From IMG/VR virus record IMGVR_UViG_3300028925_001701, positions 1 to 24,167 of that record: DNA of 24,167 nt; one strand, written 5' to 3'. The notes under the pieces are model-generated. The model was not told the origin of the DNA, ran no database searches, and worked only from the letters and a program-made list of their open reading frames with translations. A program made the position numbers and the translations under genes. The number at the start of each line of letters is the position of its first letter. Position 1 is the stretch's first letter. This document shows positions 2,692 through 24,167 of the stretch, piece by piece. The stretch comes from a virus.

Positions 2692-2767
2692 TACCGCCTT
2701 CTACATTACCATTGCAATCTATATCATAGTCTATTTACTGAGTGAGCCTGTAGCACCAGACGAATAA
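2681..2767 (+). CDS. single-span membrane micro-protein, 28 aa
   Basis: ATG at 2681 overlaps the end of the 56-aa gene, with GAGG eight bases upstream. After MSVDTA comes an uninterrupted hydrophobic stretch of about 14-15 residues (FYITIAIYIIVYLL), then the acidic tail SEPVAPDE. That is the layout of a minimal one-span inner-membrane peptide with an acidic end. Its role is unknown; membrane micro-proteins of phages include lysis regulators and superinfection-exclusion factors. It closes the operon. Confidence 0.5.
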   Translation: MSVDTAFYITIAIYIIVYLLSEPVAPDE

Positions 2768-2785
2768 CTAAAACCTTGTACAATT

Positions 2786-2841
2786 AGAAGTAATTTGTTA
2801 TATTCCGATTAAGGCATAGTTTGATTTAACAGATTACTTCT
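2786..2841 (+). terminator. long stem-loop at end of early operon
   Basis: AGAAGTAATTTGTTA (2786-2800) pairs with TAACAGATTACTTCT (2827-2841): 15 bp including one G-U wobble on the + strand RNA, with a 26-nt loop. There is no T-run after it, so it is not a classical terminator. It lies between convergent genes and could block or stabilise 3' ends. Part of the loop, AAGGCATA (2811-2818), can also pair with TATGCCTT (2865-2872). Confidence 0.45.
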
Positions 2842-2861
2842 CAACTCCTCTCAAAAATTAG

Positions 2862-3488
2862 TTATGCCTTTTCTTCTTTACCAGTCCAACCTTCCTCAAA
2901 TTTCTCTTCTTCTTCCTTATCAGTCATAGTATCTATATCTTCTTGGATTTGTTCCGGGACTGGATCCGGTGATTTATTTTCTAGACTAGCCTCCACAACA
3001 TTACCCAGCAGCTGCGATAACCTGGCTTCTACTTCATCCCGACTCATTTGATCCACCTTGCCAAACATTACCTCTTTACGATCTACAATTAAGCCCCCGA
3101 CTTTTAAAAGCGAGTTCTGGGCAGATATGGCCGCGTTAAAAGACCCCGCCTCCATTGCCTTATCACGAATATCATAAAGATCCTGGACTGCCCGATCATA
3201 ATTGAGTTCGTACTTCTTCTTGGCCTCGTTCATAAGATAGTTATATTCTTTACGAATAATAGGCTTGTTCATGAGTTTGTTTGCGGCCTGACGAGGTGAT
3301 GTGTAACCGGCTTTGTAGGCACATTCCACTAATGATAGTCTTGGATTATTAACTGAGATCCAGATAAAGTTGCGTTGTCGTCTGTTGAGGGAGTTGTCGA
3401 GATTACAATACTCTATGGGAGCTTCTTCCTCAGAAGAGATTATAGGTTCATATTCTAAGTTATTTTTTCTATATCCCATGTTGTGCAT
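2862..3488 (-). CDS. terminase small subunit-like protein
   Basis: Residues about 34-85 (RRQRNFIWISVNNPRLSLVE onward, with AYKAGYTSPRQAANKLMNKP) match the helix-turn-helix domain of the small-terminase family with the 'AyrAGYs...A..Ll.nP.v' signature. A helical oligomerisation region (about 86-130) and an acidic, Pro-rich C-terminal tail follow. In the packaging motor this subunit binds the pac or cos DNA and hands it to the large subunit. The length, 208 aa, is usual. Oddities: the large subunit is not next to it, and no Shine-Dalgarno precedes the ATG. An ATG three codons later is possible too. A host-type or phage regulator with the same fold is a less likely alternative. Confidence 0.75.
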   Translation of the reverse strand: MHNMGYRKNNLEYEPIISSEEEAPIEYCNLDNSLNRRQRNFIWISVNNPRLSLVECAYKAGYTSPRQAANKLMNKPIIRKEYNYLMNEAKKKYELNYDRAVQDLYDIRDKAMEAGSFNAAISAQNSLLKVGGLIVDRKEVMFGKVDQMSRDEVEARLSQLLGNVVEASLENKSPDPVPEQIQEDIDTMTDKEEEEKFEEGWTGKEEKA

Positions 3489-3549
3489 ATTAGAGTAGAA
3501 GTAAGTTTTAAATAATACCTACCCCCACTTTACCCTAAAGTGTATTGTG

Positions 3550-3579
3550 AGGATACTTGAAGAGTCTATAACTAGTCAA
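3550..3579 (-). promoter_or_regulatory. candidate promoter for the terminase-like gene
   Basis: On the minus strand TTGACT (3574-3579) and TATCCT (3550-3555) have an 18-bp spacer, about 60 bases upstream of the start codon. The -10 match is moderate. An independent promoter here would let the gene be expressed apart from the methyltransferase genes upstream. Confidence 0.4.
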
Positions 3580-3679
3580 GTAGTATCTCATATATTTAGT
3601 AAGTTTCTTTCATTCCCTTGTGACAAAAATGAAAAAAATACAATAATCGTCAAAAGCCTATTCTTATCATGTTTTTAGC

Positions 3680-3712
3680 TGTCATGACATTATGACAATA
3701 ATAGACAATAAT
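3680..3712. repeat. palindrome and GACAATAAT direct repeats
   Basis: The perfect palindrome TGTCATGACA (3680-3689) is followed by another TGACA and two copies of GACAATAAT eleven bases apart (about 3693-3712), just after the stop of a leftward gene. One helical turn between copies suggests protein binding. The function is unknown. Confidence 0.4.
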
Positions 3713-3952
3713 CTATTTGTTAGCAGTATTGTCAATATATTGTGCTAAAAGCTCATCAACCAAGTCTGCAAGATCTTTATCTTTGTACTCCAAACTTAGT
3801 TGTGAGATACAAAAACTTAAACTTGCTAAGATTATATTAAGACGATCTTCACCCCGATAAACCATGTGATCAAACATAGTATCTAATCTGTGTATTACTT
3901 CCTGGAGTGAGGGCTTACCCATCTTGTCTTTAATTTCAACAATCTTTGGCAT
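3713..3952 (-). CDS. hypothetical protein, 79 aa
   Basis: Unrecognised small helical protein starting MPKIVEIKDKMGKPS. It has no membrane segment or cysteine motif; the C-terminal part (KDLADLVDELLAQYID) looks like an amphipathic helix. I chose the ATG at 3952, with a weak GGTAAG upstream; a GTG five codons earlier (3967) is possible but has no ribosome binding site. The gene follows the zinc-ribbon gene in the leftward methyltransferase operon with a gap of about 30 bases. Confidence 0.6.
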   Translation of the reverse strand: MPKIVEIKDKMGKPSLQEVIHRLDTMFDHMVYRGEDRLNIILASLSFCISQLSLEYKDKDLADLVDELLAQYIDNTANK

Positions 3953-3984
3953 ATCGCATCTTACCACGATAATTTAAACAAAAG

Positions 3985-4167
3985 CTAATACTTCAACCTA
4001 GCTGGTATAACCTGTGCCCATTCACAATCATCACAACAACGGCCTTGATTAATAGGCTCAGCATTATTACCATGCTCCCAAACCACCTGACCGTCTTTGT
4101 TCTTTACAGGTTTGATGTAGCCATTACAGATACTACACTTGACCTTGTTAAGCTTTGTTACCTTCAT
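3985..4167 (-). CDS. zinc-ribbon protein, 60 aa
   Basis: The start is the ATG at 4167, inside the last codons of the methyltransferase gene and in a different frame. The frame stays open upstream, but that part only shadows the methyltransferase. The product has CSIC near residue 11 and CCDDC near residue 44, separated by a GQVVWEHGNNAEPINQGR segment. This is a treble-clef or zinc-ribbon layout with four metal-binding cysteines, ending in VIPARL. Similar small W-x-x-G-(H/N)NA-x-P...GRCCD proteins are common in marine phages, with unknown function. The 20-base overlap suggests translational coupling with the methyltransferase. Confidence 0.75.
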   Translation of the reverse strand: MKVTKLNKVKCSICNGYIKPVKNKDGQVVWEHGNNAEPINQGRCCDDCEWAQVIPARLKY

Positions 4168-5344
4168 AATCCATATTCTGAAAAATATGTTTGATAACTG
4201 CAACTGTCCAACCATTACCAAGCATTTTATATCTTTGTGTGTTAGACACATGGTTTGTGTAATCATCTGGGACTGTTTGCAATCTTTCACACTCTTTAGG
4301 AGTAAGCTTACGCCAATGTAGTTCGTCAACACTATCCCATTCATGCCTATCATAAGATCCTCTGCCACCAGATCTAACTGTTTTAGACTTCTCTCGCAGT
4401 TTTGACTCTTCAACCACCACACTATCTTTACCAACTGTTGTTATAGCGTTTGACTTATCATCTTTACGAAGTTCAAGCATCTGTGTTGTCTTATTTGCTA
4501 CAGAAATACCGTCTTTATCCATTCTTTTACCTTTATTATCATAGGCTCTGCCTCGAAATGCGCCACCTGTAACTACCTTTGGCTCTCTGTTACCACCTTG
4601 ACAAGTGTTTACAGTAGGAGACTTACCATCTTGGCTGTAGACTCTTTTAAGTATGTCATGTCCGTTAATATCAATAGCAGTTCCTACTTGTATAGGTTTA
4701 TTGACCAACTGCCGTCTTGATTTCTTTTTGTATTGTTCAACACTAGCACCTTTGTAGTAGTTAGCATCAATGCAATGTGATTTATCCCTCTCACTATTAA
4801 AGTTATCTTCCAATATATCCTTAAGCACTATGCCTTGATCTTCGGGCTCTTGTATTCCTGGAATGTTAGTCCAATAAAACCTTTGTCTTGATTGAGCACT
4901 TAGTAGCGAACTGTTTATAAAAATAGGCTCTATGCCAAAAGCTATCTCTGGATAACACTCTGAGACTTGTTGGGATATAACCTGTAAGAACTCCTTTTTC
5001 ATTCTTACATTCTCTAACAAGAAGTATCTAGGCTTTATTTCTTTTAATAAGCGAATGAACTCAAAGAACAATGCAGATCTAGGGTCATCAAAAGCAAGCT
5101 GTTTACCTGCAAAACTGAAACCCTGACAAGGAGAACCAGCTATTATTAGATCTACATCTTGATAATCTTTAGCATCTAAGTTGCAAATATCCCCTACTTG
5201 GACAATATCTGGGTAGTTAGCCTGACTGACTTTAATAGCATATTTATCTATTTCACTTGCATAATACTTTTCTACTGGTATACCAAGCTGATCAAGTGCA
5301 ATCCGACCACAACTCATGCCGTCAAATAAACTTAGTACCTTCAT
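4148..5344 (-). CDS. DNA (cytosine-5)-methyltransferase
   Basis: This enzyme transfers a methyl group from S-adenosylmethionine to C5 of cytosine in a DNA target. Visible motifs in order: I, LSLFDGMSCG (residues 4-13); IV, SPCQGFSFAG (71-80) with catalytic Cys73; VI, ENV (111-113); VIII, QSRQR (151-155); a target-recognition region of about 165-340; then RKLTPKECERLQTVPDDY (345-362) and motif X, GNGW (376-379). At 398 aa the length is normal and all catalytic parts are present. No restriction endonuclease lies nearby, so it is an orphan enzyme that probably protects phage DNA from host restriction. Its start overlaps the stop of the preceding 67-aa gene (ATGA) and has no own Shine-Dalgarno. 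The recognition sequence cannot be read from the protein. Confidence 0.93.
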   Translation of the reverse strand: MKVLSLFDGMSCGRIALDQLGIPVEKYYASEIDKYAIKVSQANYPDIVQVGDICNLDAKDYQDVDLIIAGSPCQGFSFAGKQLAFDDPRSALFFEFIRLLKEIKPRYFLLENVRMKKEFLQVISQQVSECYPEIAFGIEPIFINSSLLSAQSRQRFYWTNIPGIQEPEDQGIVLKDILEDNFNSERDKSHCIDANYYKGASVEQYKKKSRRQLVNKPIQVGTAIDINGHDILKRVYSQDGKSPTVNTCQGGNREPKVVTGGAFRGRAYDNKGKRMDKDGISVANKTTQMLELRKDDKSNAITTVGKDSVVVEESKLREKSKTVRSGGRGSYDRHEWDSVDELHWRKLTPKECERLQTVPDDYTNHVSNTQRYKMLGNGWTVAVIKHIFQNMDYEGNKA

Positions 5345-5544
5345 ATAATAGAATCTAAACTATTATCCTCGTTATAAAAATTCATTAGCTCGTTTTGTGG
5401 ATCATAGCTCCCCATACCTACATTAATTATGTGGTATTTTTTGTATGATTTTAGAACTGAATCAGTTTTTTTATTATTGTAATCATCTACAGCTTGTTCA
5501 TAAGCTAGCCTCATCATCATGTATAAATCGTTTGTTCTACCCAT
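5341..5544 (-). CDS. hypothetical protein, 67 aa, leading the methyltransferase operon
   Basis: Unrecognised. It is a small polar protein starting MGRTNDLYMMMRLAYEQAVD, with a helical N-terminal half and an Asn/Asp/Tyr-rich C-terminus. A GAGAGG ribosome binding site lies six bases before the ATG, and a good promoter (5598-5626) lies about 55 bases upstream. The ATGA overlap with the methyltransferase start means that enzyme is probably translated by coupling from this gene. This makes the small gene a likely control element for methyltransferase level, whatever its own protein does. Confidence 0.7.
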   Translation of the reverse strand: MGRTNDLYMMMRLAYEQAVDDYNNKKTDSVLKSYKKYHIINVGMGSYDPQNELMNFYNEDNSLDSII

Positions 5545-5555
5545 TTTTTACCTCT

Positions 5556-5587
5556 CTTTGTTACTTTATGTAATTTACTTTGTTACT
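5556..5587. repeat. 10-bp direct repeats in divergent promoter region
   Basis: CTTTGTTACT occurs at 5556-5565 and 5578-5587, exactly 22 bp start to start, with GTAATTTAC (a GTAA/TTAC inverted repeat) between them. They fall in the leader of the leftward transcript and near the -35 region of the rightward one. They are candidate operators. Confidence 0.45.
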
Positions 5588-5602
5588 GCTTGTAGACATT
5601 AT
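5574..5602 (+). promoter_or_regulatory. candidate rightward promoter for the nuclease operon
   Basis: TTTACT (5574-5579) and CATTAT (5597-5602) are separated by 17 bp. The -10 box overlaps that of the leftward promoter, so the two would compete. The match is moderate and AT-rich sequence makes false hits easy. Confidence 0.35.
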
Positions 5603-5626
5603 ACATAATATAAGTTAATATACAAA
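5598..5626 (-). promoter_or_regulatory. leftward promoter for the methyltransferase operon
   Basis: On the minus strand TTTGTA (5621-5626), 17-bp spacer, and a perfect TATAAT (5598-5603). It drives the 67-aa gene and the methyltransferase. Confidence 0.5.
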
Positions 5627-5648
5627 CTATAAACACATAGGAGTAATT

Positions 5649-5843
5649 ATGAGTAAAAAAGAAGTAACTATATCTGACATCATTGACGAAGTAGTTAATT
5701 ATACAAACCCATCTAAGGAAGACTTAGAGAAACAGATAGAACAAGATAAGATTAATTATCATATATGGCAGTGTGGTGTTGCTATTAAAGAACTACAGTT
5801 AGCAGTTGATGAATTGGCTGTAAAAAATAAGGAGGCATCATGA
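5649..5843 (+). CDS. hypothetical protein, 64 aa
   Basis: Unrecognised small acidic helical protein starting MSKKEVTISDIIDEVV. Residues about 22-60 could form a coiled coil (EDLEKQIEQDK ... ELQLAVDELAVKNKE). The ribosome binding region AGGAGTAATTATG is identical over 13 bases to that of the first gene of the other early rightward operon (1150-1164), which suggests a shared strong early initiation signal. The stop overlaps the next start (ATGA) behind AAGGAGG, a tight coupled junction. Confidence 0.75.
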   Translation: MSKKEVTISDIIDEVVNYTNPSKEDLEKQIEQDKINYHIWQCGVAIKELQLAVDELAVKNKEAS

Positions 5844-20122: not shown

Positions 20123-20830
20123 TTATTCCTGTAAACATTTTAACCAAAATACTAATAAGTATCTATCTCCTGATTCTACTGCAAGTCCTCTGTGCATGTG
20201 AGTAAAACTCGGAAAAATAAGAGCGTGGCCTGTAGGCAATGGCTCAACTGTACCACGTTTCAAAAACTCAGTTCCGCCACCTTTATACTTTCCAGTGTTC
20301 AAAGGAACTACCATACTAATATCAGCACTAGCATCATGATGCCATGCGCCTTGTTTTTTATCCCTTAAATTATAGTTGGCTATTTGTATTGCACCATCAT
20401 CTACGTGCCTATTCCAAATATTCAAAAATATAGGATTGCCTATAGTATATATCGTTTGCATAAGAGATTGGTAGACTTCAGGGCAATTATCTTGAAAAGT
20501 TATTTCAGGTATTTGGCGCAAATCATCTTCTTCTGGGTTAGGTTGAAAGCCATAATATGCTTCTAAGTGCTTCATTTCGTCTAATAATATGCCACAAAAC
20601 TTTTCTGAAAAGAAAGGCACCGTGTAAACATCTTTAAGTGGTTCTTTTATTATATTGTCTAGTTTTGTTTCTTTTAATGGTTTAGTACCGTTATCTTCAT
20701 AGAAATTAACTATAGGTTGTATAGAATCTTTTACAGCATTAAACGTATCTTTGTTAATATACCAATCACTTGGGTATGCTAATAATAAGTTTTGCAACTT
20801 GTATTCTTTTTGTTCTGCTAGCTGTACCAT
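20123..20830 (-). CDS. 2OG-Fe(II) oxygenase, prolyl-hydroxylase-like
   Basis: The C-terminal half carries the full iron and co-substrate set of a 2-oxoglutarate/Fe(II) dioxygenase: His164-x-Asp166 in WHHDAS, distal His213 in HMHRGLAV, and Arg223 in GDRYLLVFW for 2-oxoglutarate, on a strand-rich jelly-roll core. The N-terminal 110 residues are less conserved. The likely reaction is hydroxylation of a protein side chain or other substrate with release of CO2 and succinate. The substrate is unknown; lying inside the structural operon, it may modify a virion protein or a host target late in infection. The start overlaps the upstream gene by 13 bases. GAAAG lies very close to the ATG, so initiation may depend on coupling. 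Confidence 0.85.
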   Translation of the reverse strand: MVQLAEQKEYKLQNLLLAYPSDWYINKDTFNAVKDSIQPIVNFYEDNGTKPLKETKLDNIIKEPLKDVYTVPFFSEKFCGILLDEMKHLEAYYGFQPNPEEDDLRQIPEITFQDNCPEVYQSLMQTIYTIGNPIFLNIWNRHVDDGAIQIANYNLRDKKQGAWHHDASADISMVVPLNTGKYKGGGTEFLKRGTVEPLPTGHALIFPSFTHMHRGLAVESGDRYLLVFWLKCLQE

Positions 20831-23052: not shown

Positions 23053-23496
23053 TTAAACCTCGTGCCACTCCTTTCCTGCAAAAAGTAAAGCTTCTGCTTC
23101 TCTACGTCTTATAAGACCTTCTAATACTTTACCATTCGCTTTATTCCATCTTTTAATTTGTTCAGGTACATCTTCGTAATCACCTGCATTTATAACTTTT
23201 AACATAGTAGAAGAGTTAAGATTGCCACCACCTAAATTAAATGTCCAAGATACTAAAGCATCAAATTGATGTTGATCTAAAGCAACTGTAACTGCCTTAT
23301 CAACTATATCTTCAAACTTAGAAATATCTTCTAGTAATAATTCTTCTGCTCTTGCTTTAGATATAGACATACCCATTTGTATTCCATGGGTGCTTCCGTA
23401 ACCTATGGTTGCAACTCCCGCGGCGCATAAATAAGAATTTAATTCACAACCTTCAAACTTTTTAATTAACGATAAACCTTCTTGTGATATCTTCAT
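23053..23496 (-). CDS. endolysin, GH24 lysozyme with Cys in the triad
   Basis: A 147-aa phage lysozyme that cleaves the glycan strands of peptidoglycan. The GH24 triad is Glu15-x8-Cys24-x5-Thr30 in KKFEGCELNSYLCAAGVATI, where Cys replaces the usual Asp. A second Cys lies at Glu+2 (Cys17), the same arrangement as P1 Lyz, whose active-site Cys is held in a disulfide until release from the membrane. The C-terminal half has the usual NLGGGNLNSSTML and RRREAEALLF segments. AGAGGA before 23496 supports this start. An upstream ATG at 23559 with its own AAAAAGG would add 21 residues including a Cys and a weakly hydrophobic helix. No holin is visible in the window. Confidence 0.88.
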   Translation of the reverse strand: MKISQEGLSLIKKFEGCELNSYLCAAGVATIGYGSTHGIQMGMSISKARAEELLLEDISKFEDIVDKAVTVALDQHQFDALVSWTFNLGGGNLNSSTMLKVINAGDYEDVPEQIKRWNKANGKVLEGLIRRREAEALLFAGKEWHEV

Positions 23497-23500
23497 ATTT

Positions 23501-23881
23501 TTATTCCTCTGTAATTGTAGTAACTGTTCTATAATACACAACAACTTCTTTAAGTTCATTTATATACCTTTTTAATTCTTGCATGTTATAAGCCATAATT
23601 TCATAATCTGGTATTGTCATTGCTAAAAATACCAACTCACCTTCTTGTTTTTCTATTCTTGCTAACTGATCTTCCCAGTTATCAGGAGTTACTACAATCC
23701 ACATAGGTTCTTGCAAATCAATCTCTCTAGGCATGACCGGTTGCACTATTTTTCTTTCTAGTGGCTTTGCTGTAACTTCTATCTGCTTAGTTGGAATTAG
23801 GCTGCAACTGCAAACCATCATCAAGAGAGTCAACTGTACCGCTAAGTTTTTCGATTTCTTCCATAATATGTTTTGTACCAT
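23501..23881 (-). CDS. outer-membrane spanin lipoprotein (o-spanin)
   Basis: The N-terminus has basic residues (WKKSKN), a hydrophobic stretch (LAVQLTLLMMV) and a lipobox-like VCSC near residues 23-26, as expected for a lipoprotein cleaved by signal peptidase II. The rest has a PREIDLQEPMWIVVTPDNWE segment and a C-terminal helix (NMQELKRYINELKEVVVYYR). I associate this layout with o-spanins of marine phages. The gene starts inside the 3' part of the i-spanin gene in another frame, the Rz/Rz1-type overlap. Its AAAGGAAG site is good. Together with the i-spanin it would fuse inner and outer membranes at lysis. Confidence 0.75.
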   Translation of the reverse strand: MVQNILWKKSKNLAVQLTLLMMVCSCSLIPTKQIEVTAKPLERKIVQPVMPREIDLQEPMWIVVTPDNWEDQLARIEKQEGELVFLAMTIPDYEIMAYNMQELKRYINELKEVVVYYRTVTTITEE

Positions 23882-24167
23882 TATTTATCTTCCTTTCCAT
23901 TTTTATTGGATCTGCAAGAATTTTTGCAGATAGTTCATAGTTCTGTATGAATTTTGTGTATCTATTTAATTCTCTTTGTGCTGCTTGGCTTTTGAGACTT
24001 AATTCATTTAATTGTCCTGATTGTAATTCAAAATCAGCTTGAATAGACTTGATTGCTTCTTCTTGTGTAGCTATTGCTCCTTCTAGTAGTGCATTATTCT
24101 TAGACAGTATTTGATTTTGATTATATAAATAATAAGAACTTAAGCCTAAAACTAATATAATTGCTAT
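23787..24167 (-). CDS. inner-membrane spanin (i-spanin), 5' end cut by window
   Basis: An open frame enters from the right edge and ends at 23787, giving 126 residues. It starts inside a membrane segment (IAIILVLGLSSYYLY), then a long polar coiled coil (LSKNNALLEGAIATQEEAIK onward). A segment YTKFIQNYELSAKILADPIK followed by MERKINNGTKHIMEEIEKLS resembles the 'KP..iErriN.gT..v...iE..T' end of marine-phage Rz-like proteins. The last 95 bases overlap the o-spanin gene in a different frame. It is partial; the start codon and N-terminus lie outside the window. Confidence 0.75.
   Translation of the reverse strand: MAIILVLGLSSYYLYNQNQILSKNNALLEGAIATQEEAIKSIQADFELQSGQLNELSLKSQAAQRELNRYTKFIQNYELSAKILADPIKMERKINNGTKHIMEEIEKLSGTVDSLDDGLQLQPNSN

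Follow-up and report, generated by a model that had tools for sequence, protein, structure and literature searches.

Does an endolysin gene that combines the cysteine spacing of phage P1 Lyz with two possible in-frame starts encode one protein or two, and would the longer form be controlled as in P1? This question is raised by the right end of a virus record of 24,167 bases (IMG/VR record IMGVR_UViG_3300028925_001701), the whole of which was analyzed and is called the window in the following. A preliminary description of the sequence had suggested that the phage may make both a plain and an export-controlled enzyme.

Lysis genes at the right end of the window

The right end carries genes for an i-spanin, an o-spanin and a GH24 endolysin, all on the minus strand, for which we delineated the following features.

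23787..24167, minus strand: i-spanin gene, cut by the window edge; the related sequence L489:7720-8112 matches phrog_739, Rz-like spanin (E 3.7e-10)
23501..23881, minus strand: Rz1-like o-spanin gene; phrog_812 (E 1.2e-11), lipoprotein-type N-terminus by eye
23567..23573, minus strand: AAAAAGG, predicted ribosome-binding site of the upstream start, formed by spanin Leu-Lys-Arg codons, 7 nt before the ATG at 23559
23053-23559, minus strand: open reading frame of the long endolysin form, 168 aa from the ATG at 23559
23497..23559, minus strand: in-frame N-terminal extension of 21 residues, a predicted amphipathic helix (long-form residues 3-17) and a variable linker, from comparison and an AF2 model
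23538-23536, minus strand: codon of the extension Cys8 (long-form residue 8), the third Cys
23505..23509, minus strand: GAGGA, predicted ribosome-binding site of the downstream start, formed by the last spanin codons and preceding the ATG at 23496
23053..23496, minus strand: short endolysin form, 147 aa, GH24/T4-type lysozyme (PF00959) with E15-C24-T30 and Cys17 at Glu+2

The i-spanin gene overlaps the 5′ end of the o-spanin gene, and the 3′ end of the latter overlaps the endolysin extension in a different frame. The preliminary description had overlooked that 59 of the 63 extension bases (23501-23559) lie within the o-spanin gene. In this phase, every extension codon has a spanin wobble base as its second base. 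The endolysin gene is followed by one for a virion protein (phrog_3287 match). In the relative L489, small membrane proteins encoded about 6 kb upstream gave weak holin matches (phrog_4898, E 1.8e-4 and 2.9e-4), which allows the short form to be a classic enzyme released by a holin.

Several other genes were noticed in passing. The window encodes a 2OG-Fe(II) oxygenase-like protein amid its virion genes (20123-20830, minus strand; phrog_61, E 2.3e-29). On the viral contig of the relative L424, a CHASE2 plus adenylate/guanylate cyclase gene (78-1841; PF05226, E 1.6e-24; PF00211, E 4e-14) is located directly upstream of the lysis cassette, and L417 (61-1836) has a copy of similar appearance. L489, a contig of the same type, encodes CsgF (PF10614, E 2.3e-14), CsgG (PF03783, E 3.4e-48) and a FecR-domain protein (PF04773, E 2.7e-10) at 2726-5743, a few kb ahead of the spanins. 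A role of phage curli pores in lysis has been proposed (PMC9004378).

The short form is a complete GH24 lysozyme

The endolysin matches the PF00959 profile above its cut-off (E 2.6e-48), which assigns it to the GH24/T4-type phage lysozymes. Its catalytic triad follows the E-x8-C/D-x5-T pattern as worded for GH24 lysozymes in PMC3556154, here with Cys in the middle position. In short-form numbering the codons are E15 (23454-23452), C17 (23448-23446), C24 (23427-23425) and T30 (23409-23407). Comparison with P1 Lyz (NC_005856), which has Cys13 in a hydrophobic N-terminal segment followed by Glu42, Cys44 and Cys51, bore out the earlier reading that Cys24 replaces the catalytic Asp and that Cys17 lies at Glu+2 with identical spacing; the cysteine pattern of the P1 Lyz type, at the catalytic position and at Glu+2, is thus present.

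In the AF2 model, computed with 60 sequences (whole-model mean confidence 91.9), the lysozyme part is confidently predicted. Its best structural matches were the soluble phage lysozymes 9kbs (Z 23.7) and 9kbq (Z 23.5; rmsd 1.2, 142 residues aligned), compared with Z 19.0, rmsd 2.1 and 143 aligned residues for P1 Lyz (1xjt). As the structure 8app (AbLys1) aligns from model residue 1 (rmsd 3.2), a helix at the N-terminus may occur in other enzymes too.

The upstream frame is kept open where the lysozyme follows in frame

A search of the window and 486 fetched loci for the spanin tail yielded 146 distinct tail sequences. The source lists comprised the best 80 of 595, 357, 585, 566 and 598 relatives; class sizes are therefore not natural frequencies, and distinct sequences are not independent of each other. 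Tails were classed by how far the lysozyme motif lies from the spanin stop; an open frame was not a condition. The lysozyme is adjacent and in frame at 65 loci (class I) and adjacent in another frame at 9, 67 loci have no such lysozyme, and 5 lie at a contig edge. The 9 and the 67, which share the same spanin tail, served as 76 controls, and the contig-edge loci (1 open) were left out of the counts. The window was merged as a duplicate and stands outside the 146, its overlap codons being the same as in L084 and L087.

The extension frame is open over 13 codons at 64 of the 65 class I loci but only at 2 of the 76 controls (2/9 adjacent out of frame, 0/67 without the lysozyme). When the spanin tail was randomly recoded with synonymous codons, the frame stayed open in 3.4% of trials. 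L444, the only locus of class I with a closed frame, has an ATG directly behind its stop. Extensions in class I span 19-24 codons. The upstream frame is thus conserved in relatives wherever gene order and phase match.

Both the start and the ribosome site within the spanin gene are maintained. The upstream ATG with its AAAAAGG, adding 21 residues with a third Cys, is present as the preliminary description had stated. Among class I loci the start codon is ATG in 54 and GTG in 5 (59/65), and the other 6 have an ATG four codons on; included in the class are five loci without ATG or GTG at the usual place, L444 with its stop in the extension frame among them. In 5 loci the spanin has Ser or Gly in place of Asn at the start, with codons that leave a GTG; a Thr there, as in 6 loci, abolishes the usual extension start. 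In L448, L463, L466, L482 and L484, all class I, CAG stands at the usual start and an ATG comes four codons downstream (K-M-W-L-C); the catalytic position in these five is occupied by Asp instead of Cys.

A 4-base ribosome site precedes the upstream start in 49/65 class I loci. The Arg codon that forms it is AGG in 49/65 class I loci vs 19/76 controls (p 1.9e-9). The last spanin Val, for which GTA or GTG would create a stop in the extension frame, is GTT or GTC in 65/65 vs 22/76. A Lys codon is AAA rather than AAG, which would change Lys to Arg in the extension, in 65/65 class I loci, tighter than protein selection alone needs.

The downstream start is equally stable. An ATG with a 4-base ribosome site occurs in 65/65 class I loci, and all 60 aligned long-form sequences have the corresponding M22. 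The gene therefore has two in-frame starts, each with its own ribosome site, and both are conserved. Were the long form alone made, nothing would hold the downstream ATG and its site in place; with the extension and both starts kept in relatives, both a short and a long endolysin are probably made.

Synonymous change is reduced in the overlap

At conserved spanin residues of class I, synonymous codon diversity fell from 0.444 in the 24 upstream columns to 0.156 in the 12 columns of the overlap (p 4.6e-5), compared with 0.482 and 0.516 in the controls; at the lysozyme start of class I it was 0.332 (14 columns). An earlier set of 29 loci gave the same direction for the overlap codons. We also followed the mean nucleotide difference along the 39 class I loci in register (21-residue extension, 168-residue long form). 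It was 0.253 for the spanin upstream, fell to 0.127 near the ribosome site and 0.071 across the helix, and rose to 0.262 in the linker; the lysozyme gave 0.176 and 0.312. The pattern was the same in a looser set of 51. Only the helix and its ribosome site show this dip, an argument against a junction inherited from a recent common ancestor.

A tree was built by a quick method from 210 columns of non-overlapping spanin DNA for 139 of the 141 tails, short rows being dropped. The class changes 13 times on the best tree, and 4 changes are forced by well-supported branches. That tree gives 13 independent pairs that differ in class, and in all of them openness follows the class (13:0). Greedy pairing on all branches gave 13:0 in its four commonest outcomes and 12:0 in the fifth shown (9 runs). 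On well-supported branches, 3 or 4 of 4 pairs were in favor and none against, 4 being too few for significance. The Arg AGG trait gave 6-8 pairs for and 1 against.

The extension is predicted to form an amphipathic helix

Because the overlap phase places spanin wobble bases at the second codon positions of the extension, the residue types encoded there can be compared between classes. At six stop-free wobble positions, T (Leu/Ile) outnumbers C (Ser/Thr) by 357:20 in class I and by 185:104 in the controls (odds ratio 10); five of the six pass 0.05 singly, ext7 having p 0.22. At helix position 8, codons for Cys/Ser vs Phe number 59:6 in class I and 11:29 in the controls. These counts were pooled over related sequences, so that p values overstate independence. 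The comparison of classes shows selection, as far as sequences can tell, on the extension frame, its start, its ribosome site and the helix pattern.

The AF2 model has a helix at residues 3-17 and a loose linker of low confidence (pLDDT 78 for residues 1-10 and 60 for residues 11-20). By our own reckoning at 100 degrees per residue, one side is made up of Leu3, Leu6, Leu7, Ile10, Leu13 and Leu14, and the opposite side of Lys4, Lys5, Cys8, Glu11, Gln12 and Gln15. The Glu and Gln remarked on in the preliminary description are indeed there, together with Lys. The helix moment is 0.63 over residues 3-13; hydrophobicity and moment are modestly above those of open recodings (median tail fractions 0.245 and 0.14). 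The segment thus has the hydrophobic and the basic/polar face of an amphipathic helix, both apparently under selection, in a short helix that holds Glu and Gln. From these features we infer that the extension would bind the membrane.

The cysteines do not support control of the P1 type

Cys17 is present in 62 of the 64 readable long forms (2 Val; L444 has no readable long form), and position 24 is Cys in 56 and Asp in 8. Position 8 varies, with Cys in 37, Ser in 21 and Phe in 6, and so the N-terminal Cys on which an export-controlled form would depend is not conserved. Cys8 is missing from 27 long forms, 22 of which have Cys17 as well as Cys24; conversely, 5 of the 8 Asp24 long forms, one related group, carry Cys8. 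Since Cys8 is often absent where Cys17 and Cys24 are kept, exchange of the P1 type is unlikely to maintain the extension.

Nor did we find a SAR-like transmembrane segment: the 16-mer hydropathy within the first 60 residues of the window long form reaches at most 1.01, compared with 2.26 for P1 Lyz, and the transmembrane score TM19 of the long form of one relative (L489) peaked at 0.39. The earlier interpretation accordingly divides: its dual start is backed by the comparison, in which openness, start codons, both ribosome sites and reduced synonymous change agree, and its P1-like export-controlled form is not, with Cys8 variable and the helix far less hydrophobic than the SAR segment.

We also looked at the Cys pair in the wider family, using endolysin residues 36-147 as the query because earlier patterns had included IKKFEGCE and were hence biased. 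Among the best 80 of 357 relatives, C17 was found in 61/77 readable loci (16 Leu) and C24 in 76/78 (2 Asp). A larger set of 322 loci, consisting of endolysin relatives from such best-80 lists and of named phage records, was clustered at 80% identity into 153 clusters: 42 with both Cys17 and Cys24, 44 with Cys24 only, 13 with Cys17 and Asp24, 48 with Asp24 and no Cys17, and 6 others (odds ratio 3.5, p 9e-4). The association gave p 0.16 at 65% identity (84 clusters) and p 1.0 at 50% (27 clusters). We considered Cys17 and Cys24 as a linked switch and rejected this, the association being weak and fading with divergence. In 40 of the 42 Cys/Cys clusters the N-terminus is not hydrophobic. The extension Cys, located on the predicted polar side and exchanged with Ser, is very unlikely to be a redox switch. 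A putative direct bond between Cys17 and Cys24 in the released short enzyme is possible.

Interpretation and alternatives

We regard it as reasonably probable that one gene with two in-frame starts yields a soluble lysozyme and a second form with a membrane-binding helix; both proteins and the binding are deduced from sequence. Translation from start 2 (23496) would produce the soluble lysozyme with nothing added. Start 1 (23559), which lies within the o-spanin gene but in a different frame, would place a helix that is basic and amphipathic (MNLKKLLxIIxxLL), joined by a short linker, in front of it. The helix may bind a membrane face, be it that of the inner leaflet until the holin triggers or that of envelope membranes once it has. 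It would thereby place part of the enzyme at the membrane, with a presumed role in where or when the enzyme acts.

Among the alternatives, the same selection data could reflect an oligomerization segment, in which Leu3, Leu6, Ile10 and Leu13 form a heptad with 3-4-3 spacing and long forms pair. Two-form endolysins of Gram-positive phages can form heteromers (PMC9430671). The helix provides about two heptads only, and the short forms lack the segment. Lysozymes with the GH24 endolysin fold are known to act as monomers, and we consider this explanation unlikely. A still smaller chance is given to the view that the upstream start only tunes endolysin translation by coupling to spanin translation, with the extension as a by-product. 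The position of start and ribosome site inside the spanin gene fits this, as does a Lys codon kept although Lys to Arg would be mild; a coupling device, however, requires no fused frame, and would leave the preference for Leu/Ile over Ser/Thr and for Cys/Ser over Phe without a reason.

Low variation might also arise from a DNA or RNA signal, such as a late promoter or an RNA fold, or from a recently shared junction. The region is unusually uniform, and TATATAAATG at the upstream start resembles some phage late promoters. Yet TATAAAT varies while ATG/GTG mostly stays, flanks a few codons off are diverged, and the avoided stops are not explained by a signal. No conserved RNA pairs were detected in 27 sequences (window fold z +0.94), and a scan for sigma-70-type promoters, that type only, gave no match; such an origin appears very improbable. 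Slightly less credit still goes to each of two further readings. One is that the frame is open merely through the conserved spanin tail, which supplies nearly all extension bases and whose protein is conserved. This had been our first view and was dropped, as control loci with the same tail are mostly closed; moreover, synonymous change is reduced in the in-frame loci only. Holin tails beside a lysozyme offer a contrast: where the lysozyme lies in frame behind the holin tail (23 of 39 distinct loci), in-frame and other loci looked alike in openness by eye, without a statistic. Holin-tail loci such as L012 and L016 have a stop-free stretch ahead of the enzyme, e.g. VQLFRSILEHL, with no selection visible by eye. 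The other is a redox-controlled SAR endolysin like P1 Lyz, in which the extension Cys frees the catalytic Cys24 from its bond with Cys17. The shared spacing and the Cys8 of the window and of 37/64 long forms speak for it; the losses of Cys8 beside an intact Cys pair, its presence beside Asp24, the low hydropathy and the Cys/Cys clusters without a hydrophobic N-terminus speak against it.

Comparison with known systems

With P1 Lyz the window endolysin shares the GH24 fold, the E-x8-C-x5-T triad and the Cys at Glu+2. In contrast to P1 Lyz, a SAR endolysin activated by disulfide isomerization, it has no SAR or transmembrane segment and its extension Cys is not conserved; in addition, its second start gives a form without that Cys. 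The protein phiCbK gp104 is a soluble endolysin with a catalytic Cys and no SAR (PMC3556154), illustrating that a catalytic Cys need not mean SAR regulation; its spacing differs, and the passages on it mention no extension. The Cys pair at Glu+2 and Glu+9 is therefore no sign of P1-type regulation.

In fold and sequence the short form resembles soluble GH24 enzymes, namely P22 lysozyme (2anv) and the Acinetobacter phage lysozymes 9kbq and 9kbs. We know of no report of a spanin-embedded start for soluble GH24 endolysins of the P22 type or of Acinetobacter phages. Nor did we find such a start in the literature searched, which was largely that outside subscription journals.

Should both forms be made, this uncultured phage group would have a dual-coded spanin/endolysin junction and a lysozyme form with a membrane helix, which, if true, falls outside the standard holin and SAR models. 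Gene callers may pick either start and overlook the other form. As a tentative proposal, which we think somewhat less likely to hold than not in its full extent, such an amphitropic endolysin could represent a third placement mode in Gram-negative lysis, between soluble and SAR enzymes: the helix would be encoded out of frame in the o-spanin gene, the soluble form would come from the internal start, spanin and endolysin would share selected codons, and the ratio of the forms would help to set lysis.

A parallel in gene design is provided by Lys170, LysIME-EF1, CD27L and Ms6 LysA, two-polypeptide endolysins with an in-frame internal start, a type reported as frequent in Gram-positive phages (PMC9430671). 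The likeness lies in a single gene whose two starts share one frame and are each preceded by a separate ribosome site, known here from the sequence. The examples named in that paper come from phages of Gram-positive bacteria and mycobacteria, and their short form usually lacks a catalytic domain. In the window, by contrast, the shorter product comprises the entire lysozyme, to which the longer one adds a helix of 21 residues whose codons lie within the spanin gene.
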